From contig CAJOGQ010000025.1 of NCBI GenBank assembly GCA_905234125.1, positions 1 through 34,127 of the forward strand: a DNA stretch of 34,127 nucleotides, written 5' to 3'. Source of the stretch: an uncultured Bacteroidaceae bacterium (GTDB taxonomy: Bacteria > Bacteroidota > Bacteroidia > Bacteroidales > Bacteroidaceae). A program made the translations under genes and the position numbers. Of this stretch, positions 4,963-30,021 are shown one piece after another (positions within the stretch are counted from its first letter, which is position 1; every line of letters begins with the position of its first letter). The notes beneath the pieces are model-generated. The model saw only the letters and a list, made by a program, of their open reading frames with translations, was not told where the DNA came from and did no database searches.

Positions 4963-4997
4963 AGTTAAAAAATAAAAGTTAAAAGCTAAAAGTTAAA
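4963..4997. repeat. Heptamer array, AGTTAAA type, five units
   Basis: Five 7-bp units in strict register: three are exactly AGTTAAA, the other two are AAATAAA and AGCTAAA. The array lies in the -33 region of the GT9 promoter. Confidence 0.8.
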
Positions 4998-5037
4998 GTT
5001 ACCTATATATATTAAGGGGGTAATCATCACTTTTTTT

Positions 5038-5065
5038 AGTTTTTAGTTTTTAGTTTTTAGTTTTT
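5038..5065. repeat. Heptamer array, AGTTTTT x4
   Basis: Four perfect tandem copies of AGTTTTT directly before the GT4 promoter, flanked by T tracts. Its complement (AAAAACT) resembles the AGTTAAA-type array 40 bp away, so the divergent gap is nearly symmetrical. Confidence 0.9.
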
Positions 5066-5070
5066 TTCCC

Positions 5071-5085
5071 TACCTTTGCCCCCAT
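5071..5085 (+). promoter_or_regulatory. Promoter -7 element for the GT4-LicD-kinase run, giving an almost leaderless mRNA
   Basis: TACCTTTG (5071-5078) is followed by CCCCC and the ATG at 5084. With initiation 5-8 nt after the element, the transcript would start at or next to the start codon. The 15-bp sequence is the exact inverted partner of 4938-4952. Confidence 0.6.
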
Positions 5086-6145
5086 GGAAAGGAAAACGGT
5101 CTTGCTGGACCTTAGTGACATCGGCAACCCGACCAGCGGTTTTGGTCAGATAGCCAAGAACTATGCAGAGTGGTATTCGGCGATGGAGGATGAGACGCTG
5201 AAGTTTCATTTTCTGTTGCCTCCTGCCTATGAAAAGGACTTTGGTCCCTTGGTGGAGACGAGTCATTTTCGGCGTAAGTTTCACAAATGGTTCAGCAAGG
5301 GTCTCCCAACGGTGGATTTGTGGCACTCGACCACCCAGCAACAACTGAAACGCAAACGTGGAAAGTGTGGGAAGTTTGTGCTGACCATCCATGACCTCAA
5401 CTACCTGACCGAAAAGAACTGGATTCGTCAGCAGAAGCACAGGCTTGTGTTGCAACATGCCATCAATCAGGCTGATGCCATCACCTGCATATCCAAGTTT
5501 GTGGGCAGGCAGATTGAGGAGCAGTTCAACCTGAAGGGCAAGTCCGTCAGGGTCATCTACAACGGAGTGGAGGATATCACAGGACAGCCTGAGGCTAAAC
5601 CCACCTTTGCAACTGGCAGACCGTTCTTCTTTGCCATCGGGCAGATACGTCCGAAGAAAAACTTCCACCTGCTGGTGGACATGATGAAGGAGTTTCCTGA
5701 CCACGACCTCTATGTGTGTGGCGACGACCATTTTGCCTACTCCAAGGTGGTGCGCGAACACATCGAGGCACTTCCCACCAAGAATGCTGTTCTGGTGGGC
5801 AAGATCACGGGTGAGGAACGTGTGTGGCTCTATCGGCATTGCGAGGCCTTCCTTTTCCCCAGCGTGGGTGAGGGTTTTGGACTTCCAGCCATCGAGGCGA
5901 TGCAGTTTGGCAGAGCTGTGTTCATCTCTTCGGCCACTTGCTTGCCAGAGATATGTGGTGATTGTGCCACCGTGTGGGAGAATCTCTCGCCAGATGAGAT
6001 GGCGAAGGTGGTGAAAGCGCATCTGCCAGGATTCTATGATGATGCTGAACGGATTGAGAAGCTCAAACAGCATGCCAAAGAATTTAGTTACAAGAAGCAC
6101 ATCTCTGCATACATGAACTTGTACAGAGAGTTGCTTAATACATAA
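5084..6145 (+). CDS. Glycosyltransferase family 4 (GT-B fold)
   Basis: 353 residues. The N-terminal acceptor domain begins with VLLDLSDIGNPTSGFGQIA, where the Gly-rich loop sits in many GT4 enzymes. ITCISKF is the interdomain strand. The C-terminal domain carries FFFAIGQIRPKKN and the donor site EGFGLPAIEA at about residues 262-271, which holds the E-x7-E signature of retaining GT4 enzymes. It transfers a sugar from an NDP-sugar, probably onto LPS core or surface glycan given its neighbours. The gene is followed after 5 bp by licD and should be its co-transcript. The start is fixed by the promoter element ending 5 bp upstream. Confidence 0.93.
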   Translation: MERKTVLLDLSDIGNPTSGFGQIAKNYAEWYSAMEDETLKFHFLLPPAYEKDFGPLVETSHFRRKFHKWFSKGLPTVDLWHSTTQQQLKRKRGKCGKFVLTIHDLNYLTEKNWIRQQKHRLVLQHAINQADAITCISKFVGRQIEEQFNLKGKSVRVIYNGVEDITGQPEAKPTFATGRPFFFAIGQIRPKKNFHLLVDMMKEFPDHDLYVCGDDHFAYSKVVREHIEALPTKNAVLVGKITGEERVWLYRHCEAFLFPSVGEGFGLPAIEAMQFGRAVFISSATCLPEICGDCATVWENLSPDEMAKVVKAHLPGFYDDAERIEKLKQHAKEFSYKKHISAYMNLYRELLNT

Positions 6146-6150
6146 CAATC

Positions 6151-7002
6151 ATGCGACTGATAAATACCGCAAACTACGACATCAAAACCTTGCAGGGCAG
6201 ACTTGTACCCCTGTTAGAGTGCATTGACCAGGTGTGTCGCGAACATCATCTTCGCTACTACCTGTGGGCAGGCACGATGCTGGGTGCTGTGCGTCACAAA
6301 GGTTTCATTCCTTGGGACGACGACATGGACATCTGCATGCCCCGTCCTGACTATGACCAGCTCTTGGCGCATTGTCAGGAATGGATGCCTGCACCCTTCG
6401 AAGTGGTGGGGCCTCATAACCGTCCTGACTATCCTTACCCCTTTGCCAAAGTGGAGGACTCCAGCACGACCGTTCTGGAACGTCCTGACTTCAATTTCCC
6501 AGAGGGTATCTATGTTGATATCTTCCCCCTGGATGGCATCCCCTCTGACAAATCCATCGTCAAGAGCCATCTGAAAACCTATAAGTTCTATCGCCACTTG
6601 CTTTTCTTCCGAGGTCGTGATCCCTTCAAGCATGGCAAGGGGCCACGTTCGTGGTGGCCATTGCTCATTCACAAGGTGTTCACCCTGAAGTGGCTGCAGG
6701 ATAAGGTGCACAGCCTGATGACCAAGTATGCGTTTGATGACTGTGAGGAGGTGATAGATTACGACTCCAACGAGAAGGGTATCATCCGCAAAGAGTGGCT
6801 GGGTGAGCCGAAACCTTACGAATTTGAAGGCAAGACCTTCATGGGACTTTCCAAATCCGACGACTATCTGACCTGCATGTATGGAGATTACATGACCCCT
6901 CCACCCAAAGAAAAGCAGATTCAGCACAACTTTTACTATATAAATTTAGAGATGCCCTATCGGGAATTTTGTAAACAGAACAATATAACTCTTTCCACAT
7001 GA
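6151..7002 (+). CDS. LicD-family phosphotransferase/nucleotidyltransferase-fold protein
   Basis: 283 residues. Residues 38-60 (LWAGTMLGAVRHKGFIPWDDDMD) are the LicD core: a Gly-rich G-T-x-L-G-x-x-R loop and the metal-binding D-D-D-x-D cluster. LicD proteins in Haemophilus and pneumococcus attach phosphocholine (or another phospho-substituent) to surface glycans; the fold is of the nucleotidyltransferase type. No licA/licB/licC choline genes lie nearby, so the group transferred is unknown. It sits between GT4 and a sugar-kinase-like gene and overlaps the latter by 4 bp (ATGA), which argues for translational coupling and a shared task in decorating the LPS core. Confidence 0.92.
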   Translation: MRLINTANYDIKTLQGRLVPLLECIDQVCREHHLRYYLWAGTMLGAVRHKGFIPWDDDMDICMPRPDYDQLLAHCQEWMPAPFEVVGPHNRPDYPYPFAKVEDSSTTVLERPDFNFPEGIYVDIFPLDGIPSDKSIVKSHLKTYKFYRHLLFFRGRDPFKHGKGPRSWWPLLIHKVFTLKWLQDKVHSLMTKYAFDDCEEVIDYDSNEKGIIRKEWLGEPKPYEFEGKTFMGLSKSDDYLTCMYGDYMTPPPKEKQIQHNFYYINLEMPYREFCKQNNITLST

Positions 7003-7748
7003 AGTACAAGAACATCATTAACCCCAAGTATGAGTCACTGAAGAATTTCGTGGCAGAAATTCCAGAGAAGTTCGACAAGGAAGGAATGCTTATCTATGAC
7101 TCACGTAACACGGTGAGAGTATTCAAACAGAGTGACGGCACGAAGGTGGTTGTGAAGCGTTATCATCGCTCTCCCTTCCCCCAGCGCTTTGACTACACGT
7201 TCCGTCGTCCCAGCAAGCCTAAACGCGCCTACAACTACGGACTGAAGTTGCAGGAACTAGGCATTAACACACCCACACCCATTGCCTGTATAGAAGAATA
7301 CAAATGGGGACTCTACTCTCGTGGCTATATCATCACGGAGTTTTGTCCAGACCCAGACCTGCGTCTCCTTCGCGATGAACCAGAAGGTCATGATGGTCTT
7401 ATCAATGCTTTGGCACGCTTCTTGGTGAAGATGCACGAGAAGGGTTTCTTGCATGGCGACACGAACCTTTCCAATTTCCTCTACCACGAAGACATCAAGT
7501 CGCCTGGTGGCTACTTCATCACCACTATCGACATCAACCGTTCCCTCTTTGTAGACAAGCCATCGAAAGAAGTCTGCATCCGCAATCTGATGCGCCTCAC
7601 CCATGTGCGTCCTACGCTGACGAAGATCATCACCAAATACGCTGAATTGCGTGGATGGGATGTCGATTGGGCCATCAAATTCGTGATGCAGAAACTCGAC
7701 AACTTTGAGAAGCGGATGGAGTTGAAGAAGAAACTGAAGAAGAAGTAG
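6999..7748 (+). CDS. LPS-core kinase, WaaP/KdkA/InaA-like
   Basis: 249 residues with a small protein-kinase-like fold. The ATP-anchoring lysine is likely K53 in VVVKRYH. The catalytic loop is HGDTNLSNF at residues 152-160, with D154 as base and N159 as metal ligand. The metal-binding Asp is D178 in TIDIN. This is the layout of bacterial kinases that phosphorylate Kdo or heptose in the LPS inner core (KdkA, WaaP). The C-terminus is strongly basic (ELKKKLKKK), which would suit a membrane-surface enzyme. Together with LicD it implies a phosphorylated, decorated core. Family is confident; the sugar is not. Confidence 0.88.
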   Translation: MKYKNIINPKYESLKNFVAEIPEKFDKEGMLIYDSRNTVRVFKQSDGTKVVVKRYHRSPFPQRFDYTFRRPSKPKRAYNYGLKLQELGINTPTPIACIEEYKWGLYSRGYIITEFCPDPDLRLLRDEPEGHDGLINALARFLVKMHEKGFLHGDTNLSNFLYHEDIKSPGGYFITTIDINRSLFVDKPSKEVCIRNLMRLTHVRPTLTKIITKYAELRGWDVDWAIKFVMQKLDNFEKRMELKKKLKKK

Positions 7749-7765
7749 AGGTTTCTGGTTGAAGA

Positions 7766-7793
7766 TTTAGAGTTTAGAGTAGAGGGTTTAGAG
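7766..7793. repeat. Heptamer array, TTTAGAG type, abutting the GT2 start
   Basis: Four 7-bp units in register: TTTAGAG three times and TAGAGGG once. The array ends one base before the ATG at 7795, so it occupies the whole ribosome-entry region of the GT2 gene. Confidence 0.9.
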
Positions 7794-7794
7794 T

Positions 7795-8706
7795 ATGGTT
7801 TCATTCATCGTCCTGAACTACAACACGCCACGCATTACAAAACGGTGCGTGGACTCCATTGTGAACATCTATGGAAACAAGGACTATGAAATCATCATTG
7901 TCGATAACCACAGCACCCCTGAGAACTACGCCGAGCTGGTGGCGCTTACTACCAACCTTAACTGTCAACTATCAATCGTCACCTGTCAACTGAACACGGG
8001 CTTTGGCCTGGGCAATATGTGGGGAGCCAATCAAGCTACAGGACGCTACTTGTGCTTCCTCAACAGCGACGTGCAATTGGTCGAGGACTGTATCACACCC
8101 TTGCGTGACTATCTTGCCACCCATCCTGAAGCAGGTGTCATCACCCCTCAGCAATATCGCTCCGATGGTTCCATCGCCTTCTCCTTCCGCCATAAGATGG
8201 GCATTCGTCGAGACCTCTTTGGAGATGACATCTTCGAGCACCTCTTTCCAAAACAATTCCCCAAGCGTAGCAACCTCACTCGCACGGAGCCTTTCGTTGT
8301 GTCCGAAATCAATGGCAGTTTCATGATGTTCCGTTCCGATGTCTTTTGGCAGATTGGAGGCTTCGACACCAACATCTTCCTGTTCCATGAGGAGTACGAC
8401 ATTGCACGACGGTTAGAATTGCACGGCTATCAAAACATTGTCTATCCCACTGTGCGGTTCCTTCATGCGCATGGAGCCACCACCAAATCATCCCCCAAGT
8501 GCATCCGTCAGGAGCGCTACATCTCCAAAATCTATTGCTACAGCAAGTATCATCATCCCCTCATGACCCTCCTCTTCCGAGCTGAGAACATCCTCTTGAA
8601 ACTCTTCTCCCCCAAGAACTGGTATCTCATCCCCGTCTTTTTGCGTGGCAACGTGTTGGCACTCTCCATGCGACCCTCTATCCATCAACCAAACCCTAAA
8701 CAATAA
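7795..8706 (+). CDS. Glycosyltransferase family 2 (rhamnosyltransferase-like) with heptamer repeat inside the frame
   Basis: 303 residues. The GT-A start MVSFIVLNYNTP and IIIVDNHST is followed by NTGFGLGNMWGAN (residues 67-79) and the metal-binding FLNSDVQL (about 88-95). HEEYDIARRLELHGY supplies the acidic catalytic motif. It probably adds rhamnose or another sugar to surface glycan. Residues about 54-65 (TNLNCQLSIVTCQ) are encoded by a heptamer array like those found between genes in this window, inserted in the variable loop just before NTGFG. The C-terminal residues are also coded by a repeat-like CCCTAAA stretch. The 5' end is preceded by another array rather than a ribosome site. The catalytic core looks intact. 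Confidence 0.9.
   Translation: MVSFIVLNYNTPRITKRCVDSIVNIYGNKDYEIIIVDNHSTPENYAELVALTTNLNCQLSIVTCQLNTGFGLGNMWGANQATGRYLCFLNSDVQLVEDCITPLRDYLATHPEAGVITPQQYRSDGSIAFSFRHKMGIRRDLFGDDIFEHLFPKQFPKRSNLTRTEPFVVSEINGSFMMFRSDVFWQIGGFDTNIFLFHEEYDIARRLELHGYQNIVYPTVRFLHAHGATTKSSPKCIRQERYISKIYCYSKYHHPLMTLLFRAENILLKLFSPKNWYLIPVFLRGNVLALSMRPSIHQPNPKQ
7955..7989. repeat. Heptamer array inside the GT2 reading frame
   Basis: Five 7-bp units in register, including CTGTCAA at 7962-7968 and 7983-7989 and CTATCAA at 7969-7975. The same units occur between genes at 22226-22239 and 28542-28555. Confidence 0.8.
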
Positions 8707-8816
8707 GCTGTTTCTCAAAGTGACAAATCGTTAGTTCTAAGTGAAGGGAAAAAGAATAATATAACGCCAAAGGATTATCTTTTTTGAGGATAAAACGAAA
8801 AAAAGTGGTGAAAAGT

Positions 8817-8847
8817 TTTGGTGGTCGGCGAAAAAGTCGTACCTTTG
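8817..8847 (+). promoter_or_regulatory. Promoter for tRNA-Glu (and probably rpsT)
   Basis: TTTG at 8817-8820, a 19-bp spacer, then TACCTTTG at 8840-8847: a near-perfect Bacteroidota promoter. Transcription would begin about 8853, some 25 nt before the mature tRNA. Confidence 0.8.
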
Positions 8848-8877
8848 CACTCGCATTTGAAAAAATGCTCTTAGGTT

Positions 8878-8952
8878 GGCCCGTTCGTCTATCGGCTAGG
8901 ACGAGAGATTTTCATTCTCTAAAGAGGAGTTCGACTCTCCTACGGGCTACCA
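8878..8952 (+). tRNA. tRNA-Glu (anticodon UUC), CCA encoded
   Basis: A full cloverleaf can be drawn. The acceptor stem GGCCCGT/ACGGGCT has a G-U first pair. The D arm follows, then the anticodon stem AGAGA/TCTCT around the loop TTTTCAT with anticodon TTC at 8911-8913, then the T arm with GTTCGACTC, discriminator A at 8949 and genomic CCA at 8950-8952. A short CCAT/ATGG hairpin with a T6 loop follows directly and may aid processing or partial termination. Confidence 0.97.
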
Positions 8953-9023
8953 TTTTTTATGGAGATGGGTGCGAGGTCACAGCGCCATACCACATCGGAC
9001 TCCTTATCAATTTGATTCAAACA

Positions 9024-9044
9024 AAAAGTTAAAAACTAAAAATT
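9024..9044. repeat. Heptamer array, AAAAACT type, in the rpsT leader
   Basis: Three degenerate 7-bp units (AAAAGTT, AAAAACT, AAAAATT) end 8 bp before the rpsT start. A-rich leaders are common in Bacteroidota, so composition alone may explain it. Confidence 0.5.
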
Positions 9045-9052
9045 CAAATCAA

Positions 9053-9307
9053 ATGGCACACCACAAGTCATGTCTGAAGCGCATCCGTCAGAACGAGAAG
9101 CGCAGACTCCACAACCGTTACTACGCAAAGACTATGCGTAATTTCCTCCGTGACATCCGTAATGAGAAGGATAAGGCTACGGCTCAGGAAATGTTCCCAA
9201 AACTCCAGAAGATGCTGGACAAGTTGGCTAAGCAGAACATCATCCACTGGAAGAAGGCTGCTAACCTGAAGTCGAACACGGCGAAGTTGATCGCTAAGAT
9301 GGCATAA
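9053..9307 (+). CDS. rpsT: 30S ribosomal protein S20
   Basis: 84 residues, the usual S20 length: [18 protein letters not shown], Lys/Arg-rich helices throughout, ending KLIAKMA. S20 binds 16S rRNA early in small-subunit assembly. The ATG at 9053 is chosen over an upstream in-frame ATG at 8969, because MAHHKS is the conserved S20 start and the extra residues would be translated from tRNA-trailer sequence. No promoter is visible between the tRNA and this gene, so it is probably co-transcribed with tRNA-Glu. A strong terminator follows after 30 bp. Confidence 0.97.
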
Positions 9308-9337
9308 CAGGAATAGCTAAATATTCGTAGAGAAAAG

Positions 9338-9372
9338 AAGACCGGAACTCGAAAGAGTTTTGGTCTTTTTTT
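9338..9372 (+). terminator. Intrinsic terminator of rpsT
   Basis: A 13-bp stem (AAGACCGGAACTC with GAGTTTTGGTCTT, two G-U pairs) closes a GAAA tetraloop and runs into a seven-T tract. Confidence 0.9.
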
Positions 9373-9478
9373 GATGCCGAAGGAGGCAAAACAGCATCGA
9401 AATGGGGTTGTTTTGAACTTTTTTCCCCTACGGGGAAGATTTCTTTCTTTTTTCTTTTTTTATGTCACAAATAATGCG

Positions 9479-9486
9479 TAACTTTG
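9479..9486 (+). promoter_or_regulatory. gyrB promoter -7 element
   Basis: TAACTTTG matches TAnnTTTG; the -33 position (9456-9459) is TTTT within a T-rich run. The transcript would have a leader of about 40 nt before the ATG at 9533. Confidence 0.6.
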
Positions 9487-9532
9487 TAACGTAATCCGAA
9501 TAAAACAAAGAGTATATTTAAGAGAATAGAAA

Positions 9533-11509
9533 ATGGATGAAACACAAATGAACGGGGCGGATTATTCCGCCAGTAACATCCAAGTCCTTGAAGGCTTGGA
9601 GGCTGTAAGAAAACGCCCCGCCATGTACATCGGCGATATCAGCGAGAAGGGCTTGCACCATCTCGTATATGAAACCGTCGACAATTCAATTGATGAGGCG
9701 CTGGCAGGCTTCTGCACGCACATCGAAGTGACTATCAACGAAGACAATTCCATCACGGTTCAGGATAATGGACGTGGTATTCCTGTTGACATGCATGAGA
9801 AGGAGCATCGCAGTGCCCTCGAAGTGGTGATGACTGTGTTGCACGCCGGTGGTAAGTTCGACAAGGGCTCCTATAAGGTGTCAGGCGGTCTGCATGGTGT
9901 GGGTGTGAGTTGTGTGAACGCGCTGTCGAAGCACATGACCTCTCAGGTGTATCGTGACGGCAAGGTCTATCAGCAGGAGTATGAGAAGGGTAAGCCTCTC
10001 TACGATGTGAAGGTGGTGGGCGAGACGGAGTTGCGAGGCACTCGTCAGCAGTTCTGGCCAGACAACAGCATCTTCATCACGACAACTTACAAGTATGACA
10101 TTCTGGCAAACCGTATGCGTGAGCTGGCCTATCTGAATGCAGGCATCAAGATTACGCTGACGGACATGCGTTTAGACAAGAATGCTGAGGTGGGCATCGA
10201 GGGCATCCGTCAGGAGATCTTCCACAGCGAGGGCGGTCTGAAAGACTTCGTCCGCTATATCGATTCAACCCGCACTTGCCTGTTTGATGATGTGATTTAT
10301 TTGAACACGGAGAAGCAGAACACGCCTATTGAGGTGGCCATCATGTACAACACCTCGTACAGCGAGAATATCCACTCCTACGTGAACAATATTAACACCA
10401 TCGAGGGTGGTACGCACCTGCAGGGTTTCCGTACAGCCTTGACGCGTGTGCTGAAGAAATATGCTGACGACAACAAGATCACGGAGAAGCTGGAGAAGCA
10501 GAAGATTGAAATCAGCGGTGAGGACTTCCGCGAGGGACTCACAGCGGTCATCAGCGTGAAGGTGGCTGAGCCTCAGTTCGAGGGTCAAACGAAGACCAAG
10601 CTGGGTAACAGCGAGGTGGCTGGTGCCGTTCAGCAGGCTGTGGGTGAGGCTCTAACCTACTATTTGGAGGAACACCCAAAGGAGGCCAAGTTGGTCATTG
10701 ACAAGGTGGTGTTGGCCGCTGAAGCCCGTGTGGCAGCCCGTGCAGCCCGTGAAAAGGTGCAACGCAAGAACCCGATGACAGGTGGTGGTCTGCCTGGTAA
10801 GTTGGCTGACTGCTCAGACAAGGATGCTGCAAACTGCGAGATGTTCATCGTCGAGGGTGATTCGGCAGGTGGTTCGGCCAAGCAGGGTCGCGACCGTCAC
10901 TTCCAGGCCATCCTGCCCATCAGAGGTAAGATATTCAATGTGGAGCGCGTGAAGTGGCACCAGGCTTTCGAGCATGAGGAGGTGAACAACATCTTCCAGG
11001 CATTAGGCGTGAAGTTCGGCCTGAACCCAGAAGATCAGAAGGAGGCCAACTACGAGAAGTTGCGTTACTACAAGACCATCATCATGACCGATGCCGATGT
11101 CGATGGTTCTCACATCGACACCCTTCTGATGACACTCTTCTTCCGATTCCTGCCACAGCTGATTCGCGACGGTCGTCTCTACATTGCCACTCCTCCACTC
11201 TACAAGTGTACGAAGGGCAAGGTGAGCGAGTACTGCTACGATGAGGCTGCCCTCCAGCGATTCATCGACACGTATGGTGAGGGTTCAGAGGATAAGATCA
11301 AGGTGCAGCGATACAAAGGTCTTGGTGAGATGAACCCAGAACAGCTTTGGGAGACCACCATGAATCCTGAGACACGTCTCTTGAAGCAGGTGACGATTGA
11401 CGATGCCGCAGAGGCAGACTACACCTTCTCTATGCTGATGGGCGAGGACGTCGGTCCACGTCGAGAGTTCATTGAGAAGAACGCCACCTATGCGACGATA
11501 GATGCATAA
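9533..11509 (+). CDS. gyrB: DNA gyrase subunit B
   Basis: 658 residues, the short GyrB form lacking the enterobacterial insert. The GHKL ATPase domain shows NSIDEALAGF, DNGRGIPVDMHEKE and GGLHGVGVSCVNALS. The transducer domain follows. The TOPRIM domain has the catalytic glutamate in FIVEGDSAGGSAKQGRDR and the metal aspartates in MTDADVDGSHI. The C-terminus carries QRYKGLGEMNPEQLWETTM. With GyrA it introduces negative supercoils using ATP. It is monocistronic here with its own promoter and is convergent with ftsZ. ParE is a paralogue, but the TOPRIM and C-terminal motifs and length fit GyrB better. Confidence 0.96.
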   Translation: MDETQMNGADYSASNIQVLEGLEAVRKRPAMYIGDISEKGLHHLVYETVDNSIDEALAGFCTHIEVTINEDNSITVQDNGRGIPVDMHEKEHRSALEVVMTVLHAGGKFDKGSYKVSGGLHGVGVSCVNALSKHMTSQVYRDGKVYQQEYEKGKPLYDVKVVGETELRGTRQQFWPDNSIFITTTYKYDILANRMRELAYLNAGIKITLTDMRLDKNAEVGIEGIRQEIFHSEGGLKDFVRYIDSTRTCLFDDVIYLNTEKQNTPIEVAIMYNTSYSENIHSYVNNINTIEGGTHLQGFRTALTRVLKKYADDNKITEKLEKQKIEISGEDFREGLTAVISVKVAEPQFEGQTKTKLGNSEVAGAVQQAVGEALTYYLEEHPKEAKLVIDKVVLAAEARVAARAAREKVQRKNPMTGGGLPGKLADCSDKDAANCEMFIVEGDSAGGSAKQGRDRHFQAILPIRGKIFNVERVKWHQAFEHEEVNNIFQALGVKFGLNPEDQKEANYEKLRYYKTIIMTDADVDGSHIDTLLMTLFFRFLPQLIRDGRLYIATPPLYKCTKGKVSEYCYDEAALQRFIDTYGEGSEDKIKVQRYKGLGEMNPEQLWETTMNPETRLLKQVTIDDAAEADYTFSMLMGEDVGPRREFIEKNATYATIDA

Positions 11510-15537: not shown

Positions 15538-15545
15538 CTTCTAAG

Positions 15546-15587
15546 CCCTAAACGTTAAACTCTTATCTCTACACTCTCACTCTTCAC
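15546..15587. repeat. Degenerate heptamer array between murC and ftsQ
   Basis: Six 7-bp steps in register beginning CCCTAAA (15546-15552) and including CTCTACA and CTCTCAC. The murC stop codon (15584-15586) falls within the last unit. Confidence 0.6.
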
Positions 15588-22204: not shown

Positions 22205-22239
22205 ATGTCAAATGTCAATTATCAACTGTCAACTATCAA
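22205..22239. repeat. Heptamer array, xTGTCAA/xTATCAA type, five units, containing the murE stop
   Basis: Five 7-bp units in register: ATGTCAA twice, then one each of TTATCAA, CTGTCAA and CTATCAA. The murE stop codon (22236-22238) is inside the last unit. It fills the murE-mraY gap. Confidence 0.85.
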
Positions 22240-23684
22240 CTAAAACAAGCTCTCACCTCTTCCTTATCATCGAAGTGGTGCTTCACTCCCTTCACATCTT
22301 GATAGTCTTCGTGTCCCTTTCCTGCGATAAGAATCACGTCCCCTGTTTTGGCCATCATGCAGGCAGTCTTGATAGCTTGACGACGATCCACGATGGCAAT
22401 CACCTTCTTCATCTGTTCCTCATCCAGCCCTGCCAACATGTCGTTGATGATGTCCTGAGGCTCCTCGAAACGTGGGTTGTCACTTGTGATGATGACACGG
22501 TCGCTCTGCTTTACTGCCTCACGCGCCATGAGCGGACGCTTGCCTTTGTCGCGATTGCCACCTGCACCACATACGGTGATGACCTCTCCTTTACCCTCCA
22601 ACACACCATGAATGGCGTTCAGCACATTCTCCAACGCATCGGGCGTGTGGGCATAATCGACAATAGCTGTGTAGCCAGAAGGGGAACGGAGAGCTTCGAA
22701 TCGTCCATTCACGGGCTTCATCGCACTCAGCGCCACCAACACCTCCTGCTCGTTCTTGCCCAACATGATAGCGGCACCATAGACAGCCAGGAGGTTGCTT
22801 ACGTTGAACTTGCCAATGAATTGCACACCCACTTCCTTGCCATTGATGTTGAGATACATGCCCTCGAAGTGACACTCGATGATCTTGGCCTTGAAATCAG
22901 CGGGGCTCTGCACAGAATAGGTCTTCACCTGAGCCTTCGTGTTCTGCACCATCACCATCCCGTTCTTGTCGTCTGCATTCGTGATGGCGAAAGCTTCCTT
23001 GGGAAGGTTGTCGAAGAAGAGTTTCTTGGCCTTGATGTAGTTCTCAAAGGTCTTGTGATAGTCGAGATGGTCACGCGTGATGTTGGTGAACAATCCCCCA
23101 GCAAAGGTCAGGCCACCAATGCGGTTCTGCACGATGCTGTGACTGCTCACTTCCATGAAGGCGTACTCACACCCTGCCTCCACCATCTGAGCCAACAAGG
23201 CATTGAGTGTGATGGGGTCTGGCGTCGTATGCTCAGTTGGGATTGCCTCACCATCAATGTAATTACATACGGTGGAGAGTAACCCTGCCTTGTGTCCCAT
23301 ATAGCGGAACATCTCATACAGCACGGTGGCGATGGTCGTCTTTCCGTTCGTTCCTGTCACACCCACCAACTTCAGCTTGCTCGTCGGGTTGCCGTAGAAA
23401 GTAGTGGCAACCTGCCCAACGACCTGCTCCGTATTCTCCACACGCACATACGTCACTCCCTCCTTCACCTCAGCAGGAATCTCCTCACACAGCACAGCCA
23501 CAGCACCCAGTTCCAATGCCTTGCCAATATAATTGTGTCCATCAGCCACCGTTCCTCGCACGGCGATGAAGAGATGACCCTCCCCAATCTGGCGGGAGTC
23601 GATTTGCACACCATTGATGTTATGCTCTAAATCGCCCTTCACTTCGAGGACATTGAGCCTGCTGACGAGTTCTTTCAGTTTCAT
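22236..23684 (-). CDS. murE: UDP-MurNAc-tripeptide synthetase (meso-diaminopimelate-adding)
   Basis: 482 residues. [14 protein letters not shown] is the N-terminal MurE signature; GTNGKTT (111-117) is the ATP site; [10 protein letters not shown] and [12 protein letters not shown] follow. The amino-acid pocket motif is SDNPRFEEP with DNPR at 402-405, which in this family marks use of meso-diaminopimelate rather than lysine. It makes UDP-MurNAc-L-Ala-D-Glu-mDAP. Normally murF follows in proteobacteria, but here mraY does, so MurF must be encoded elsewhere. Confidence 0.96.
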
Positions 23685-23717
23685 ATCTTATCTATTTTAT
23701 TAAAGTTCAACCCTATA

Positions 23718-23769
23718 CTCTAAACCCTAAACTCTAAACCCTAAACTATTTCAACCCTAAACTATTTCA
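23718..23769. repeat. Heptamer array (CTCTAAA/CCCTAAA) plus 16-bp tandem duplication at the ftsI stop
   Basis: CTCTAAA and CCCTAAA alternate twice in perfect register (23718-23745). A 16-bp unit, ACCCTAAACTATTTCA, then occurs twice in tandem (23738-23753 and 23754-23769). The second copy includes the ftsI stop codon (23762-23764), so the end of the gene was copied into the gap. Confidence 0.9.
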
Positions 23770-25969
23770 GCTCCAACGATACAGTTTGTCCTTTCACCAC
23801 TTTGCTTCCACTTGGCACACTCTGATGCGTCACCCTTCCACGTCCTGACACACGCACTTTCATCCCTCGCTGACTCAGCGCATAGACGGCATCCTTTGCA
23901 CCCATTCCTGTTACGTTGGGCACAATATTGTCGCTGACTTTCACCGATTGGAATTCTACAGCGTCTGCACCTGCGTATGCGGTTCCCCATTCGTACCCGT
24001 CTCCTCCTTTCGATTTCATGCCCAACTGATCGAGCACATAACGCGCTGCCATCACATTGCCGTCCTTCACCGTAGGTACAAGCACAGCTGTGGAGTCTTT
24101 GGCCAAGTTGATGTCGGTGGTCACATTTTTGGAATAGACGCGCTGGGCAATTTTGGAGAAGACAGGACCAGCCTGTCCACCACCACTTGCCACGTAGTAG
24201 GCATGACGGATGGCTACGATGCAGGTGTATTTGGGGTCTTCAGAGGGATAATAGCCACAGAAACTGACTAAGTGCTCATTGTGACCAGCCTTATATCCGC
24301 CACCTGTTGCCACCTGAGCCGTACCCGTCTTTCCGCTCACATGGAAATAGGGATTGCCAGCTCGCTTACCCAAGCCCTCCTTGTCGTTCACCACCCTGTA
24401 GAGGATGCCTTGAATGTCATCTAACGCATGCTGGCTACAGATGTGAGGTTTGATGACCTCCACAGGGAACTCCTCCACCATCTCGCCGTTCTTTGCGATA
24501 CCCTTGACAAAACGCGGGCGCACCATTTTTCCGTTGTTGGCGATGGCGTTGTAGAAGCTGACTGTGCTGATAGGCGGAATCTGGGTTTCATATCCGATGG
24601 ACATCCACGCCAAAGCCGTAGCAGACCAGTTGTCTGACATCCTGTAACCACCCTTGATGTCCTTGTGAGGTGTACGGATGACGGGGTCGGCGGCACCGTC
24701 AAAAGGCAATCCGAGTGGCGTGCCAATACCTACACGACGCAATCCTTCCACAAACTTCTCAGGCTGGTTGTGGTAGTGCTTATCAATCAATTTGCTCACA
24801 CCCACGTTACTGGAGAACATCAGCACATGTGGTACGTCGATGGTGCCATAGCCTCCTCTGTGCCAGTTGTGGTCTTTCATCGATGCTCCATACATATTGC
24901 AGATACCACTTCCTGTCTCCACACGGTCAGACGTTGTGATATAACCATCGTCCAATGCCACCAAAATGGAAGCTGTCTTGAAGGTGGAACCAGGCTCCAT
25001 CAAGGCAGCCAGGGCGTAGTTTCTGGCCTCATAATACTCGCCGTCATCGTAGCGCATCAGGTTCACGATGGCCTTCACATCGCCTGTCTTCACCTCCATC
25101 AGCACCACCACACCCATCGAGGCTTCCAACTCGTGCAGTTTCTCACGGAGGGCACTTTCGCAGATGTCCTGCATGCTCACATCGATGGTGCTCACAAGGT
25201 CGTAACCATCCACGGGCTCCTTATCCACAATGGACAGGTATTTTGACAGCACCTTCTTGTTGTGCTTCTGACCTGGTTCACCTCTCAACAGCGAGTCGTA
25301 AGCCAACTCCAGACCTGAACGAGCCGAATCCTTCGCACCAAACATCTCCCCCAATGTACGACGTGCCAACGAACCGAATGGCTTGTTGCGGTTGTTACGA
25401 GGTTCGATGGTCAAGCCGCTGGTGTAGCGGTTCTTGAGATTGAAGACAGGAAGCCGCATCAGGTCATTGTACTGAATAAAGTTCAGCACCACACGGGGCG
25501 ACACATCCCAGTAGCGCTTATGTTCCTTCAGACCCTTCGTCAGATGAGCCAAATGCTCCTCGTAGGTGTATCTGGGACAAATCTCAGCCAAACCACGACA
25601 GATGGTGTCCAGATTGACCTCCCACATGGAGTCCTTTTCGTGCACCTGCTGGGGGTCATACACCCTGATTTTTGAACCATTGGCAGCCGTCGAATCGGGC
25701 AGACGGTCAATACCAGACAGGAAGTCGATATACACCTTATAGTCAGGCAGACTACTGGCCATCAACTGACCATCGGCACTCAGAATGTTTCCACGTGCTG
25801 CTGGCAGTTTCTCTGGCTTGCCCACACTCACTTCACCCACTTCCTTCCACTTGTCATGCTCCACCGTTGCAGTAATGACAGATTTTGTGATGATGGCGAT
25901 CATCACAAGGGCTGCAATCACCACAATGACCGTGATGCGCGTATTGATATATTTCTTGTCAAATTTCAT
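23762..25969 (-). CDS. ftsI: Septal transpeptidase FtsI (class B penicillin-binding protein with PASTA domain)
   Basis: 735 residues. One membrane helix at about 12-32; pedestal domain about 50-250, with LPAARGNILSADG; transpeptidase domain with the active-site serine in STFK (328-331), SSN (386-388) and KTGT (547-550), all intact. A PASTA domain closes the protein (about 680-735, NIVPNVTGMGAKDAVYALSQRGMKV). A C-terminal PASTA is absent from E. coli FtsI but found in Bacteroidota and Gram-positive homologues. It cross-links septal peptidoglycan with FtsW. The start overlaps the ftsL stop by 4 bp (ATGA). Confidence 0.96.
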   Translation of the reverse strand: MKFDKKYINTRITVIVVIAALVMIAIITKSVITATVEHDKWKEVGEVSVGKPEKLPAARGNILSADGQLMASSLPDYKVYIDFLSGIDRLPDSTAANGSKIRVYDPQQVHEKDSMWEVNLDTICRGLAEICPRYTYEEHLAHLTKGLKEHKRYWDVSPRVVLNFIQYNDLMRLPVFNLKNRYTSGLTIEPRNNRNKPFGSLARRTLGEMFGAKDSARSGLELAYDSLLRGEPGQKHNKKVLSKYLSIVDKEPVDGYDLVSTIDVSMQDICESALREKLHELEASMGVVVLMEVKTGDVKAIVNLMRYDDGEYYEARNYALAALMEPGSTFKTASILVALDDGYITTSDRVETGSGICNMYGASMKDHNWHRGGYGTIDVPHVLMFSSNVGVSKLIDKHYHNQPEKFVEGLRRVGIGTPLGLPFDGAADPVIRTPHKDIKGGYRMSDNWSATALAWMSIGYETQIPPISTVSFYNAIANNGKMVRPRFVKGIAKNGEMVEEFPVEVIKPHICSQHALDDIQGILYRVVNDKEGLGKRAGNPYFHVSGKTGTAQVATGGGYKAGHNEHLVSFCGYYPSEDPKYTCIVAIRHAYYVASGGGQAGPVFSKIAQRVYSKNVTTDINLAKDSTAVLVPTVKDGNVMAARYVLDQLGMKSKGGDGYEWGTAYAGADAVEFQSVKVSDNIVPNVTGMGAKDAVYALSQRGMKVRVSGRGRVTHQSVPSGSKVVKGQTVSLELK

Positions 25970-26679
25970 TGTCCGGTGGTTTTTGCGGGTTGCTCTTTCT
26001 TCTCTTTTTGCTCACTCTCAGCAGGTTGCGCCTTCTTCTCATTCTCAGCAGGCTGCTCTTTCTTCTCATTCTCAACGGGTTGTGAATTGATTGCCTCAGC
26101 GGGTTCCTGCGTTTCTTCTTCTGTATCAACTTCGTTGGCCTTCAGCTCTGACGAATCGACCAATACCTCCTCAATTTCCTGTTCGTCCGACTGGACTTTT
26201 TTGTCGCTTGCCTTAATCAGGAAGGGAGGGGTGATGGAATTGCGCAACAAGCTGTCAGGAGTGCTGCGTAGTCGCTTTTCCACATTCGATTGTCGGGTCA
26301 GGTTCATCAGTTCGCTCGATTGGGTCAGCACGTTGTACTTCACCTCCTGCAATCTTCCCCGAAGACTGTCAATCAAGATGATATCTTGCTGACTGTCATA
26401 ACGGTTGCCTGTGTAAATCAGCATCAGGAATACGCAGAACACCACAAACATGATCTGCTTAATCATGAACTTGCTCATCAAGAAATCGCCGCCAAGTATG
26501 GACTTGACAGAGATTTCTCCGAGCTCGCTTTCATCATCCTCATTCGTAAACTTTCGAATGGCCTCGATGGCTTCCTGTTCCTCTGTTTTCATTTCGTTTT
26601 CCATCGCAAGTTCATCTGGAGGAGTCATCCCTGACTCTTCCAGCATCTTTTTCTTCGTGTCGTCGTTCTTTGTCTTCAT
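25966..26679 (-). CDS. ftsL: FtsL-like division protein with long low-complexity tail
   Basis: 237 residues, about twice the usual FtsL-like length. An acidic cytoplasmic region (1-68) precedes one membrane helix (about 72-90, IKQIMFVVFCVFLMLIYTG) and a short periplasmic coiled coil (about 97-140). After that comes a tail of about 80 residues, rich in Glu, Lys, Gln and Pro, with imperfect repeats built on PAENEKK (about 200-233). FtsL stabilises the FtsQ/FtsI/FtsW complex. The call rests on topology and its place between rsmH and ftsI; sequence identity in this family is always low. Confidence 0.85.
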   Translation of the reverse strand: MKTKNDDTKKKMLEESGMTPPDELAMENEMKTEEQEAIEAIRKFTNEDDESELGEISVKSILGGDFLMSKFMIKQIMFVVFCVFLMLIYTGNRYDSQQDIILIDSLRGRLQEVKYNVLTQSSELMNLTRQSNVEKRLRSTPDSLLRNSITPPFLIKASDKKVQSDEQEIEEVLVDSSELKANEVDTEEETQEPAEAINSQPVENEKKEQPAENEKKAQPAESEQKEKKEQPAKTTGQ

Positions 26680-26801
26680 ACTTCGTCTCTGCCTGGCTTC
26701 TTCTTTAAGCCTTTCCTTTAAATATAATAATGTGTAATCTCACTTTATCGCCTGTCTTCAAAGGCGTGGATGACTAATTTTCTAATTCTTTCTACCAGTC
26801 T

Positions 26802-27722
26802 CTATATCTTCTCCGCCACTCTCAGTTTGGCACTTCGGCTTCTCGGATTCTTTGCCATTTCCTCCTCCGTAGGTACGATTACTTGACGATTCACCAATTT
26901 GAATGGTGCATTCACCCTTCCGAAGAAATCCTTGTCTTCCTTTCCCTCCACATTACCCGTCTTCATCAGGTTCTTCACCATGCGGTCTTCGAGTGAATGG
27001 TAGGTGATCACCACCAATCGCCCTCCTGGCTTCAACATCTCCGTCGCTCCCTTCAGCATCTCACGCAAGGCGTCCATCTCGTGATTCACCTCTATGCGCA
27101 AGGCTTGAAACACCTTGGCCAGTTCCTTCTTCTCCCTTTCGTTGCGGAAGAAAGGTTTCACCACCTCCAGAAAGTCGCCAATCGTCTCAATGGGCTTCCC
27201 TTGTCTTGCCTTCACGATGGCTGATGCCAACTTGCGGCTCTGCTTCAATTCGCCATACAGGTAGAAGACATCTGCCAACTGCTTCTCATCATACGTGTTC
27301 ACCACATCTGCCGCTGTCTGTCCAGCCCGCTGGTTCATCCTCATGTCGAGTTTGCCCTCAAAACGGAACGAGAATCCACGTTCGCTATCATCAAAATGGT
27401 GGGAACTCACACCTAAATCAGCCAACAACCCGTCAATCTGCTCCACCCCGTGGTATTTCAAGAAGTTCTTCAGGAATCGGAAATTGCTCCTCACAAAAGT
27501 GAACATCCCCTCATCAAGCCCCTCAGCATTCCGTTCTGCGTCAGCATCCTGGTCAAAACCATAAAGATGCCCTTGCCCATCCAGCCTCGACAGAATCTCC
27601 CTGCTATGTCCCCCACCTCCAAATGTCACATCCACATAGCAACCACCTTCGCCAATGTTCAGCCCATCCACACTCTCTTTCAGCAACACCGGCACATGGT
27701 ATGTCATCTCACTTTCCACCAT
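26802..27722 (-). CDS. rsmH: 16S rRNA (cytosine-1402-N4)-methyltransferase RsmH
   Basis: 306 residues. MTYHVPVLLKESVDGL is the conserved start (ATG at 27707); the called ATG adds MVESE and both are possible. VDVTFGGGGHSREIL is the SAM loop; LADLGVSSHHFDDSERGFSFR and DMRMN follow; VVITYHSLEDRMVK and RSRSAKLRVAEKI end it. It methylates C1402 of 16S rRNA and is the usual second gene of dcw clusters (mraW). A gap of 122 bp separates it from ftsL, with no clear promoter seen in it. Confidence 0.97.
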   Translation of the reverse strand: MVESEMTYHVPVLLKESVDGLNIGEGGCYVDVTFGGGGHSREILSRLDGQGHLYGFDQDADAERNAEGLDEGMFTFVRSNFRFLKNFLKYHGVEQIDGLLADLGVSSHHFDDSERGFSFRFEGKLDMRMNQRAGQTAADVVNTYDEKQLADVFYLYGELKQSRKLASAIVKARQGKPIETIGDFLEVVKPFFRNEREKKELAKVFQALRIEVNHEMDALREMLKGATEMLKPGGRLVVITYHSLEDRMVKNLMKTGNVEGKEDKDFFGRVNAPFKLVNRQVIVPTEEEMAKNPRSRSAKLRVAEKI

Positions 27723-27733
27723 ATTTATGAATC

Positions 27734-27761
27734 CTCTAAACTGTCAACTCTAAACTGTCAA
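27734..27761. repeat. Tandem 14-bp (two heptamers) array at the mraZ stop
   Basis: CTCTAAACTGTCAA occurs twice, back to back (27734-27747, 27748-27761), joining the two heptamer types CTCTAAA and CTGTCAA. The mraZ stop codon (27758-27760) lies inside the second copy. Confidence 0.9.
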
Positions 27762-28210
27762 CTCTCAACTTGTCCAAACAGGCTCTCCAACTCTTCGCCC
27801 AAGTTGTCCGCACCCTTCATCACTTCCTCCAAAGCTTGCTTGCTCCAGATTTCCACTCTGTCCACCATCGCCAAGAAACGGACATCGGCTTCAATGCCAG
27901 CGTATTGCAATTTCCTTTTCGAAATCAGCAAACGGCCATTTTTGTCCAATTCAATCGGCTCAGCGTCAGCCTCAAACTTTCTCAACATCATCTGCTCTTT
28001 GCTGTTCCAAGGGTTCACCTTCGCACGCAGACTGTCCAAGTGGGCGTTCCACACCGATTCAGGATACAGCACCAGACACTTCTGGAAGACATCCTGACGC
28101 AACACGAGGTTCTTTTCCTCCTCAGCGTCAAGCACCTTCCTGAAAGCGGCAGGCAGGAAAACCCTACCTTTAGAGTCCGTCTTAGCTGGATAATCACCAA
28201 TGAATCGCAT
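27758..28210 (-). CDS. mraZ: Transcriptional regulator MraZ
   Basis: 150 residues with two SpoVT/AbrB-like MraZ repeats. MRFIGDYPAKTDSKGRVFLP is the first, with the conserved D-x-K-G-R-x-x-L-P; ELDKNGRLLIS opens the second. MraZ binds repeated GTGGG boxes before its own operon and controls dcw transcription. The ATG at 28210 is chosen because the longer frame to 28264 would begin inside the promoter and the MraZ boxes. The C-terminus (GQVES) and stop are encoded by heptamer-array sequence. Confidence 0.95.
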   Translation of the reverse strand: MRFIGDYPAKTDSKGRVFLPAAFRKVLDAEEEKNLVLRQDVFQKCLVLYPESVWNAHLDSLRAKVNPWNSKEQMMLRKFEADAEPIELDKNGRLLISKRKLQYAGIEADVRFLAMVDRVEIWSKQALEEVMKGADNLGEELESLFGQVES

Positions 28211-28232
28211 AGTCTTTTTGTAAATTAGTGTG

Positions 28233-28264
28233 CAAATGTACACAAATTCCCCACAATTCCCCAC
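28233..28264 (-). promoter_or_regulatory. dcw operon promoter overlapped by two MraZ boxes
   Basis: On the reverse strand TACATTTG (28233-28240) is the -7 element. Immediately upstream are two perfect tandem copies of GTGGGGAATT (28255-28264, 28245-28254), 10 bp apart, as MraZ boxes are in other phyla. They cover the space between -10 and -33, so bound MraZ should block RNA polymerase. The leader would be about 15 nt. Confidence 0.8.
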
Positions 28265-28289
28265 CTTTTATCATTTTTTTTTCAAAAAA

Positions 28290-28313
28290 GTTATCAACAC
28301 CCCTGTTGATAAC
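28290..28313. repeat. 24-bp inverted repeat upstream of mraZ (DnaA-box-like arms)
   Basis: GTTATCAACA and TGTTGATAAC flank CCCC. Each arm contains TTATCAACA, one base from the DnaA box TTATNCACA. It lies about 50 bp upstream of the mraZ -7 element. Confidence 0.65.
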
Positions 28314-28372
28314 TCCGCAACTATCTGATTATGAGTAATGTTTGAAAATACATAAAAAGTGGGGGAACCCTC

Positions 28373-28397
28373 AATTGTAAACTCCGACTTTACAATT
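28373..28397. repeat. 9-bp inverted repeat in the mraZ upstream region
   Basis: AATTGTAAA and TTTACAATT are separated by 7 bp. Apart from this, the 24-bp palindrome, the promoter and a hairpin at 28469, the 349-bp stretch 28211-28559 shows no gene. Confidence 0.6.
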
Positions 28398-28468
28398 CGT
28401 GCATTTTTATTAAAATTCCCTTTTCAAACTCCTTGACCATAGAACGCGAGCAAGAGGGTGATAAACAT

Positions 28469-28505
28469 AAAGGGAAGGCCACACATCCCGTGCAACCTTC
28501 CCTTT
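28469..28505. terminator. Hairpin terminator between the CobW-family gene and mraZ
   Basis: AAAGGGAAGG (28469-28478) pairs perfectly with CCTTCCCTTT (28496-28505); inner bases CAC/GTG can extend it. It probably ends the leftward CobW-family transcript before the dcw promoter. Confidence 0.75.
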
Positions 28506-28541
28506 CTCATTTGATGCCCATTTGCTTGCATCGCGTTAGCC

Positions 28542-28562
28542 CTATCAACTGTCAACTCGTTA
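28542..28562. repeat. Heptamer array at the end of the Gly-rich remnant
   Basis: Three 7-bp units in register (CTATCAA, CTGTCAA, CTCGTTA); the last holds the stop codon of the remnant frame. Confidence 0.7.
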
Positions 28563-28685
28563 ACCTCCGAAGCCGCCGCCCTCTGGTGGAGGACCATCAT
28601 TGCACTGGTCGTTGCTACCACCGTTGTTGTAGCCGCCAGTGGTGCCGCTGCTGGTTCCCTCGCCCTCAGTACCTCGTCCAGAACA
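28560..28685 (-). pseudogene. Gly-rich peptide remnant in frame after the CobW-family stop
   Basis: Directly after the TGA of the CobW-family gene, the same frame stays open for 41 codons and then stops. It begins CSGRGTEGEGTSSG and ends GPPPEGGGFGG, very rich in Gly, Asn and Ser. There is no start codon of its own. The composition and the Cys-Ser-Gly step recall the tail of the MKKxYxxP peptide at 3589-3783. The likeliest reading is the 3' end of such a peptide gene that lost its 5' half and now abuts the metallochaperone gene. TGA read-through is an untested alternative. Confidence 0.45.
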
Positions 28686-29966
28686 TCAGTCTGCTAAGCA
28701 GGCATCGAGCATTTCGTGGAGAAATTCCTTCATGGAGTGATCCATGTGTTGGCCGATGAAGACGAGTTTCTGCATGCGGTCGCCATATTGGGCATCCCAG
28801 TCGGCCTTGAGTTTGGGTTCGGCCTCTAAGAGACGGTCGAGTTGGTCTTTGGGCATGGTGGCGTACCACTGTCCGCAGTTCTTAAGGGAGAATTGTTTGC
28901 CGGCTTGCTCGAAGAGGTAGCAGATGTCTTCCTCGCCCTTGAACCAGCAGATGCCTTTGGCACGGATGATGTTCTTAGGCCAAAGACGAGCCACGAAATC
29001 GTCGAAGAGGCCGAGTTTCATGGGACGACGGGCGAAATAGACGTAGGTGCCTATGCCGTATTCTTCTGCTTCGCCTTCATCGTGATGATGATGGTGGTGG
29101 TGTTCATGGGAGTGATGGGAGTCATGGGAATCGTCATCGTCATCATCGTCATCGTGGTGATGGTGGTGTTCATGTTCATCGTGATCATCATCATCTTCTT
29201 CTTGCTCCTCGCTCCTTGCCCCTTGCTCCTCATTAATCCCTTCTACGGCAGAAATCCAGGCGGCGCTGGTGGCTACCTTGTCGAAGTCGAACATGTTGGT
29301 GTGGAGAATCTTGTCGAAATCCACGTCGCCGTAGTTACATTCGATGATGTCGGCTTTGGGTTGGAGGGCACGGACAATCTGCTTGATGCGGGAGAGCTCT
29401 TCTGGTGTCACTTCGGAGGCTTTGTTCAGGAGCACGATGTTGCAGAACTCAATCTGCTGAATGACAAGGTTTTCAATGTCTTCCTCGCCGATGTTGGGTT
29501 TCTGGAGCGCATCGCCTGAACCAAATTCATCGCGCATGCGGAGGGAATCGACCACCGTGACGATGCAGTCGAGGCGTGGCAGGCCGTTTGCCCAATATTT
29601 GGGTTCCATCGAGGGGATGGAGCAGATGGTTTGGGCGATGGGAGCTGGTTCGCAGATTCCACTGGCCTCGATGACGATGTAGTCGAACTGTTGCATCTTC
29701 ACCAGGTCTGTGAGCTGTTCGACGAGATCCATTTTCAGCGTGCAGCAGATGCAGCCGTTCTGTAGGGCGACGAGAGAGTCGTCTTTCTGGTCGACGATGC
29801 CTCCCTGTTGGATGAGGTCTGCATCGATGTTCACTTCGCCGATGTCATTGACGATGACGGCGAATTTGATTCCTTTCTTGTTGCCGAGTATACGGTTGAG
29901 CAAGGTCGTTTTGCCACTGCCCAGATAGCCTGTCAGCAGTAGCACGGGTACTTCTTTGAATGCCAT
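28686..29966 (-). CDS. CobW/COG0523-family GTP-dependent metallochaperone with His/Asp-rich loop
   Basis: 426 residues. P-loop GYLGSGKTT (13-21); the metal-binding CxCC motif as GCICC (71-75), hallmark of COG0523; VIEASGICEP (98-107); NKAS (181-184) as the base-recognition element; CobW C-terminal domain about 304-422. Between the two domains, residues 257-297 are almost only His and Asp, as in zinc-handling members. Just before it, EEQGARSEEQE (245-255) is coded by a heptamer array. The family inserts or hands over zinc or other metals to client proteins. A zinc-dependent M23 peptidase lies upstream on the same strand, which suits a zinc role, but no Zur box was found. Confidence 0.92.
   Translation of the reverse strand: MAFKEVPVLLLTGYLGSGKTTLLNRILGNKKGIKFAVIVNDIGEVNIDADLIQQGGIVDQKDDSLVALQNGCICCTLKMDLVEQLTDLVKMQQFDYIVIEASGICEPAPIAQTICSIPSMEPKYWANGLPRLDCIVTVVDSLRMRDEFGSGDALQKPNIGEEDIENLVIQQIEFCNIVLLNKASEVTPEELSRIKQIVRALQPKADIIECNYGDVDFDKILHTNMFDFDKVATSAAWISAVEGINEEQGARSEEQEEDDDDHDEHEHHHHHDDDDDDDDSHDSHHSHEHHHHHHHDEGEAEEYGIGTYVYFARRPMKLGLFDDFVARLWPKNIIRAKGICWFKGEEDICYLFEQAGKQFSLKNCGQWYATMPKDQLDRLLEAEPKLKADWDAQYGDRMQKLVFIGQHMDHSMKEFLHEMLDACLAD
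29204..29231. repeat. Heptamer array inside the CobW-family frame
   Basis: On the reverse strand, four 7-bp units in register: GAGGAGC, AAGGGGC, AAGGAGC and GAGGAGC. They encode the GARSEEQ-type insert just before the His-rich loop. Confidence 0.85.
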
Positions 29967-29972
29967 GATAGG

Positions 29973-30021
29973 ATGTTAAATGTTAAATGTCAGATGTTAA
30001 ATGGAAAATGTTAAATGTTAT
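29973..30021. repeat. Heptamer array, ATGTTAA type, seven units, containing the M23 stop
   Basis: Seven 7-bp units in perfect register; four are exactly ATGTTAA and the others differ at one to three positions (for example ATGTCAG). The stop codon of the M23 gene (30018-30020) is in the last unit. It fills the whole gap to the CobW-family gene. Confidence 0.92.

Follow-up and report, generated by a model that had tools for sequence, protein, structure and literature searches.

Heptanucleotide arrays in the cell-division window

The window analysed here is a stretch of 34,127 nucleotides on contig C25 of an uncultured Bacteroidaceae bacterium, whose genome comprises 2.70 Mb in 107 contigs and is 84% complete. 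It carries the mraZ-ftsZ cell-division cluster, as identified with Pfam, together with short tandem arrays of 7-nt units. Comparison of MraY placed the closest named relatives among uncultured rumen and hindgut Prevotellaceae/Bacteroidaceae, including Candidatus Minthosoma. Genes were called with a home-made caller and the window arrays with Tandem Repeats Finder (TRF) at a minimum score of 30. The initial annotation had described at least a dozen arrays with a strict 7-bp unit at gene junctions. About nine were found: of the 11 sites listed, TRF called 9 with period 7, some of them better as period 14. The unit is looser than described, as two units take turns in several arrays (period 14) and matches reached no more than 72% at 7766 and 69% at 7960. 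Seven of the called arrays lie at junctions; those at 7960 and 29204 lie within coding genes.

Within the cluster, a GTTGACA/GTTGATA array (22205..22242, minus strand; TRF 22206-22241) is located between murE and mraY, and the stop codon of murE falls within it. Between ftsI and murE, GTTTAGG and GTTTAGA alternate with period 14, accompanied by a 16-bp repeat (23709..23769, minus strand; TRF 23709-23747). A mixed array of period 14 called by TRF between mraZ and mraW (27734..27770, minus strand) supplies the stop codon of mraZ; it does combine two unit types, GTTTAGA and GTTGACA, as had been proposed, and the proposal that distant sites share units was likewise confirmed by sequence and family comparison. 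A degenerate CCCTAAA/CTCTAAA-like stretch lies between murC and ftsQ (15546..15580, minus strand). At 28528..28541 (minus strand) a copy of the half-motif GGCTRACGCGATGY, present as GGCTAACGCGATGC and lacking a paired right arm, adjoins about two CTGTCAA/CTATCAA units at 28542-28556. The sites at 15546 and 28542 were not called by TRF; both can be made out by eye but are short or degenerate.

Further arrays were called by TRF elsewhere in the window. An AAGTTAA array (4962..5001) and a perfect TTTTTAG array of 4.7 copies (5033..5065; 100% matches) were identified by partner search as the left and right arms of an inverted pair between divergent genes, and the pair 4962-5065 folds into a predicted long stem. 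Directly downstream of the right arm stands a TACCTTTG box, presumably of the Bacteroidota promoter type. Within 4930-5090, TACCTTTGCCCCCAT of both divergent genes is flush with the inverted arrays, so that the promoter region looks like part of the inverted duplication. An imperfect TTTAGAG array (7766..7794, plus strand) fills the gap to the ATG of a glycosyltransferase gene at 7795. Inside this gene (7795-8706; glycosyltransferase family 2 by Pfam), an imperfect AACTGTC-type array (7960..7992, plus strand) translates without stops as NLNCQLSIVTCQLN. An AAGGAGC-like array (29204..29231, minus strand) lies inside a CobW-like gene (28686-29966; Pfam) and reads EEQGARSEEQ, and an ATGTTAA array of 6.9 copies (29973..30020) fills the gap between two minus-strand genes.

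Period, vocabulary and position of the arrays

Array counts were compared with shuffled sequence by means of a home-made array score, stricter than the TRF setting. The window contained six arrays of period 7 or 14, against a mean of 0.015 and a maximum of 1 in 200 dinucleotide shuffles. In 426 kb of the source genome, of which 48 kb were intergenic, intergenic arrays numbered 26 at period 7 and 10 at period 14, with 0-3 at any other period up to 20; five shuffles of this sample gave 0.0 intergenic arrays at periods 7 and 14. The sharp 7-bp peak predicted earlier is thus present in the source genome, and the outcome of no excess is excluded there. As in the heptanucleotide class of long simple sequence repeats, tandem 7-nt units occur beyond chance. 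In called coding sequences (CDS), 7 was the largest single period (12 arrays, plus 7 at period 14), despite only multiples of three being free to change there. The presence of the arrays in genes at all suggests mutation rather than selection as the source of the period.

A sample of 63 arrays from the source genome was assigned to families by merging heptamers over rotation and strand. It comprised 26 families, compared with 59.6 for random intergenic heptamers (minimum 53 in 500 draws), and the pattern GTT-D-A-N-R fitted 29 of the 63 arrays (random mean 2.5, maximum 8). The unit sequences had been thought to vary freely. They vary inside one common repertoire, as indicated by the small number of families, the excess of GTT-D-A-N-R and the sharing of families. 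The probability that two arrays belong to one family was 0.066-0.070 inside each of three genomes and 0.051-0.058 between these three congeners, where some pairs from the relatives G017 and G025 are orthologous sites; it was 0.012-0.014 when arrays were compared with or among 80 mraY loci, most of them from more distant genomes. Arrays free of C or G made up 31/62 in the source genome and 31/83 in G017/G025. A C-free strand was dropped as a rule, since 49% of random single heptamers qualify too. The mean minor share was 0.087 in the source genome and 0.166 in G017/G025, compared with 0.185 for random heptamers, and the source-genome arrays are somewhat more one-sided in C and G than random heptamers.

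The 63 arrays were distributed over 27 co-directional, 8 divergent and 5 convergent gaps, 7 ends of stretches and 16 positions well inside genes, which shows that they are not a junction-only feature. Their density per kb was 0.93 in co-directional, 0.80 in convergent and 0.75 in divergent gaps, and 0.043 in CDS. Orientation was not biased against gene strand (30/32 and 41/42) or against GC skew (32/30 and 36/47), so that a replication-strand bias was rejected. Among the 27 co-directional arrays, stops in two or more frames were found on the sense strand only in 8, on the antisense strand only in 7, on both in 10 and on neither in 2; the near-equality of the first two classes showed no strand preference and ruled out stop codons in all frames as a selected feature. 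The lack of strand or junction-type preference argues against a bound protein or a translation signal.

Arrays often extend into the upstream gene and provide its stop codon. Inside genes, 13 of the 16 arrays were stop-free in every sense frame, adding peptides such as NSQLSTLNSQL. The genes concerned in the source genome and in G025 encode pyruvate formate-lyase, anthranilate synthase I, a LytTR regulator, cytochrome bd subunit II, TilS, DsbD, a NuoF-like protein, an ABC ATPase and a polyprenyl synthase. At the pyruvate formate-lyase site, 19 orthologues were readable among 30 loci: 12 had no insert, 5 carried AACTSTC arrays, one a different heptamer array and one another insert. On the tree of this enzyme the AACTSTC label needs four changes, of which well-supported branches force one, compatible with a single origin of the insert or with several. 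The LytTR linker contained an AACTCTC array in the source genome and an AAGGAGC array in one congener.

Change between relatives and taxonomic spread

The first 93 kb of alignment between G017 and G025 showed about 92% identity. In the larger fetched set, 21 of 42 indels of at least 4 bp with clean flanks were multiples of 7 (P = 4e-8); overlapping BLAST pieces may be part of the aligned lengths behind the count. Of 30 unique orthologous array sites, 14 could be aligned, and 8 of 13 gaps in these were multiples of 7, five of them of 21 bp; both the indel and the site samples are small. Array length thus changes in whole units between relatives, as had been expected and as in heptanucleotide repeats generally, and change in whole 7-nt units at the arrays is a live mutational process. 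The other 16 sites differed in content or presence, some carrying another family, and comparison with congeners, including at the murE-mraY junction, showed junctions at which relatives lack the array or have a different one. Anchored comparisons needed both flanks in the fetched partner stretches, which held for 36 of 60 array clusters in one pair and 3 of 8 in the other.

The pattern (GTTTAGR)x3 was detected in 22 of 150 genomes, 19 of them among the 45 genomes of the genus (source genome included) and 3 among the 105 outside; its reversed-pattern control gave 0 in the source genome and small numbers elsewhere. Repeats of the AGTTGASA type were found in 24 of the 45 genus genomes. Reversed controls were high for this search and for another with 399 matches (control 240), and do not constitute a null because the reversed unit fits rotated arrays. 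A unit-free search of 80 named mraY loci detected arrays of period 7 or 14 in 32, with 65 arrays at period 7, 13 at 14, 29 at 8 and 19 at 9. The weaker second peak at period 8 came mainly from outside the closest group (26 of the 29 arrays). In small samples, single stretches of at most 20 kb, several short and four masked (G+C 0), a 7-bp peak did not appear: across 20 other genera of the family, periods 7 and 11 each accounted for 5 arrays, and across 20 other families of the order one array had period 7 and 4 had period 15. The 7-nt arrays are a trait of several lineages of the family and are patchy between species.

Most genomes used are fragmented assemblies; an assembly artefact is unlikely, as a genome with a 3.7-Mb contig also holds two period-7 arrays in 20 kb. 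Loss of mismatch repair was rejected as the cause, with mutS above the cut-off in 40 of the 45 genus genomes, the source genome included.

Origin of the arrays

The reading that we favour, with a probability of roughly 60%, is that the arrays are heptanucleotide microsatellites that change through slippage by 7 nt, are seeded anew when one site is copied to another and pass through a selective filter. Arrays would grow and shrink in whole units, most simply via strand slippage during replication. New sites would be seeded by copying from other arrays, for example by template switching between repeats, which may also replace one array by another, and snap-back copying could yield the inverted arms. 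Selection would then leave arrays in intergenic gaps, at gene ends and in permissive protein loops, usually in a stop-free orientation. For the most part they would be neutral or slightly selfish DNA that evolves fast, rather than binding sites. Re-seeding by copying is suggested by the restricted, lineage-wide vocabulary together with the finding that a relative can carry a different family at the orthologous site. The earlier proposal of a length-constrained expansion rather than a bound protein agrees with the indels in sevens and with the absence of strand and junction-type preference.

A number of observations weigh against this reading. Indels outside pre-existing arrays were multiples of 7 in 7 of 25 cases (P = 0.056, not significant). 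A control on sequence outside arrays gave 18 gaps of at least 4 bp, and the 4 that were multiples of 7 were all exactly 7 bp; array-free junctions gave 1 such length difference in 13, and the array-poor pair G010/G011 gave 1 in 9 indels of at least 4 bp. In CDS, periods of 3n totalled 19, the same as periods 7 and 14 together, and some assignments to CDS or intergenic DNA may be wrong because of the home-made gene caller. One core hairpin, of the kind described below, has kept its position in five congeners, where the flanks are 86-94% identical, and its conservation hints that it may be functional. No transfer from one site to another was observed directly, and the reading does not account for the preference for 7 over other lengths.

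Independent local slippage, in which each site expanded a chance seed and shared units reflect sequence bias, is a fairly unlikely alternative. It would account for the changes by 7-nt units and for the site at L286 8990, where relatives carry one and two copies of a unit, and polymerase slippage is the mechanism proposed for bacterial heptanucleotide repeats in the description of Mrazek 2007 given by PMC4679880. The lineage-linked vocabulary is, however, far narrower than random seeds would give (26 families against 59.6, and GTTDANR in 29/63 against 2.5), and different families occupy some orthologous sites.

Some arrays occur as inverted pairs. An inverted partner within 150 bp was found for 8 of 55 source-genome arrays and for none of the shuffled arrays, and for 8/74 arrays in G017/G025 and 3/14 in G010/G011. 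A core, GGCTRACGCGATGY-spacer-CCGCATGG, is dispersed (window 28528-28541, L302, L316, L324, L342, L308, L312, L329 and others) and often lies between inverted heptamer arrays of one family. The half-motif GGCTRACGCGATGY occurred in 25 of the 45 genus genomes, with 26 copies in the source genome and none for the reversed pattern. Among 43 distinct instances (at most one mismatch), 23 had CCGCATGGC (at most two mismatches) downstream, and a period-7 repeat was present in 18 left and 17 right flanks. Left flanks matched their own inverted right flanks with a mean of 13.98, compared with 7.33 for those of other copies. The exact composite core was found in 8 of 13 congeners sampled and in 1 of 188 other genomes of the family; the source genome had none. 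Half-core and at least 10 matches to the two array patterns searched occurred together in 15 genus genomes, with 10 showing the core only, 2 the arrays only and 18 neither (P = 0.0007, not corrected for kinship). Two core copies, in L289 and L295, had no counterpart at the anchored position in the partner species; another core hairpin was kept at the same place in the G010/G011 pair. Rfam 15 gave no match to arrays or core at the gathering score in 20 sources, only three tRNA matches.

Two further arrangements were observed around the core. A C-rich palindrome (CCCCCTCCGACTCCCCCAAGGGGGAG-like) adjoins core or arrays in L282 (~7760-8110), L289 (~3150-3270), L306, L307, L311, L320 and L328, as if modules had been combined. 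In L037 (8430-8560), a core copy is tandemly duplicated with a 22-bp step within one hairpin.

An undescribed mosaic hairpin element of the genus could be imagined from these data, with a conserved apical core of GGCTRACGCGATGY, a short spacer and CCGCATGG, and with stem arms made of inverted heptamer arrays whose family changes. Snap-back or template-switch copying would rewrite both arms together; hairpin and arrays would form a single system that spreads itself and seeds heptamers genome-wide and into conserved enzymes, and loss of the hairpin nuclease SbcCD may have allowed its expansion. We regard this account as unlikely. SbcD, a subunit of the hairpin nuclease, scored above its family cut-off in 6 of the 45 genus genomes, a cut-off that may miss divergent members, since only 8 of 13 control genomes passed. 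At least 10 two-pattern matches were present in none of these 6 and in 17 of the 39 others (Fisher P = 0.07, uncorrected for kinship or completeness). The relation between SbcD and arrays is a lead and not a result.

Mobile or template-driven spread in general, whether by a hairpin or mosaic element or by a polymerase writing heptamers from a template, would fit the distribution of the half-core, the agreement of own-partner arms and the core copies missing from partner species, and is judged quite improbable. A transposase of the type linked to repetitive extragenic palindromic (REP) sequences was sought without success, as no Y1_Tnp match was obtained in the source genome (84% complete); 14 of the 45 genus genomes scored above the cut-off, and at least 10 array matches were found in 2 of these 14 compared with 15 of the 31 others. 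Arm sequence differs between core copies, unlike the conserved terminal inverted repeats of miniature inverted-repeat transposable elements. Many core copies, that of the window included, lack paired arms, and 47 of the 55 source-genome arrays have no inverted partner within 150 bp. Least probable of all are functional mRNA or DNA elements, namely translation enhancers, terminators or protein-binding sites as proposed for TAACTGA in Beggiatoaceae: intergenic enrichment, arrays directly before start codons (7766-7794), the long stems of inverted pairs and the core hairpin kept in five congeners would suit them, but a translation, terminator or promoter role was rejected as a general explanation by the absence of orientation bias and the similar density across junction types, and arrays lie within unrelated enzymes, are missing from, or differ at, the corresponding junction of relatives and reach fewer than 10 two-pattern matches in 28 of the 45 genus genomes.

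Several known systems resemble the arrays in part. The heptameric short tandem repeats (STRR) of filamentous cyanobacteria also form several families dispersed in the genome; their hosts are an unrelated lineage. Rickettsia palindromic elements likewise add in-frame peptides to conserved proteins, but are not tandem heptamers. Mosaics of REP sequences and bacterial interspersed mosaic elements (BIME) combine a dispersed hairpin core with other repeat modules, as here; in contrast to these, no link to a transposase was found here and the arms are variable heptamer arrays.

Heptamer repeats as such are familiar from bacterial DNA, as PMC4679880, PMC4692102 and PMC4060949 indicate. According to PMC4679880, heptanucleotides outnumbered every other long-unit class in most of the genomes that Mrazek 2007 surveyed, TAACTGA repeats occur in marine Beggiatoaceae, Cyanobacteria and five Bacteroidetes, including Paludibacter, and other heptamer repeats accompany them in Gramella and Elizabethkingia. 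The repeats of Mrazek 2007, known here through descriptions in PMC4679880 and PMC4692102, resemble the present ones in their dominant 7-nt unit and in the polymerase slippage proposed; beside these descriptions stand one lineage vocabulary, about a quarter of arrays in genes and family differences at orthologous sites. TAACTGA repeats, as presented in PMC4679880, are also heptamers, mostly intergenic and patchy between relatives. They are mostly forward and directly upstream of start codons, whereas no orientation bias and similar junction densities were found here, and TAACTGA itself is absent from the 26 families of the source-genome arrays. GGGAATC/GGGGAYT repeats of Xanthomonas and Nostoc are described in PMC4692102 as largely intergenic, with some inverted pairs and variable length, as here; they are of a G-rich quadruplex type, whereas GGGG occurs in only a minority of the present families (AAGGGGC, AGGGGCG). 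No heptamer arrays in Prevotellaceae or inside their genes were found among the literature matches listed, mostly from open literature. The multi-family heptamer system, of which no description in Bacteroidales was known initially, is therefore only partly new, given the heptamer repeats already described in bacteria including five Bacteroidetes. Beyond these, the arrays show a shared vocabulary, same-site differences between species, hairpins around a core and arrays within enzymes.

For annotation in this group, predicted gene starts and ends next to arrays deserve doubt, and odd peptides such as the one quoted above may be repeat insertions rather than domains. Inside conserved enzymes, 7-nt steps keep the frame only in sets of three. 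With more than 100 two-pattern matches in some genomes and none in others, the genus is a place in which the process can be watched.

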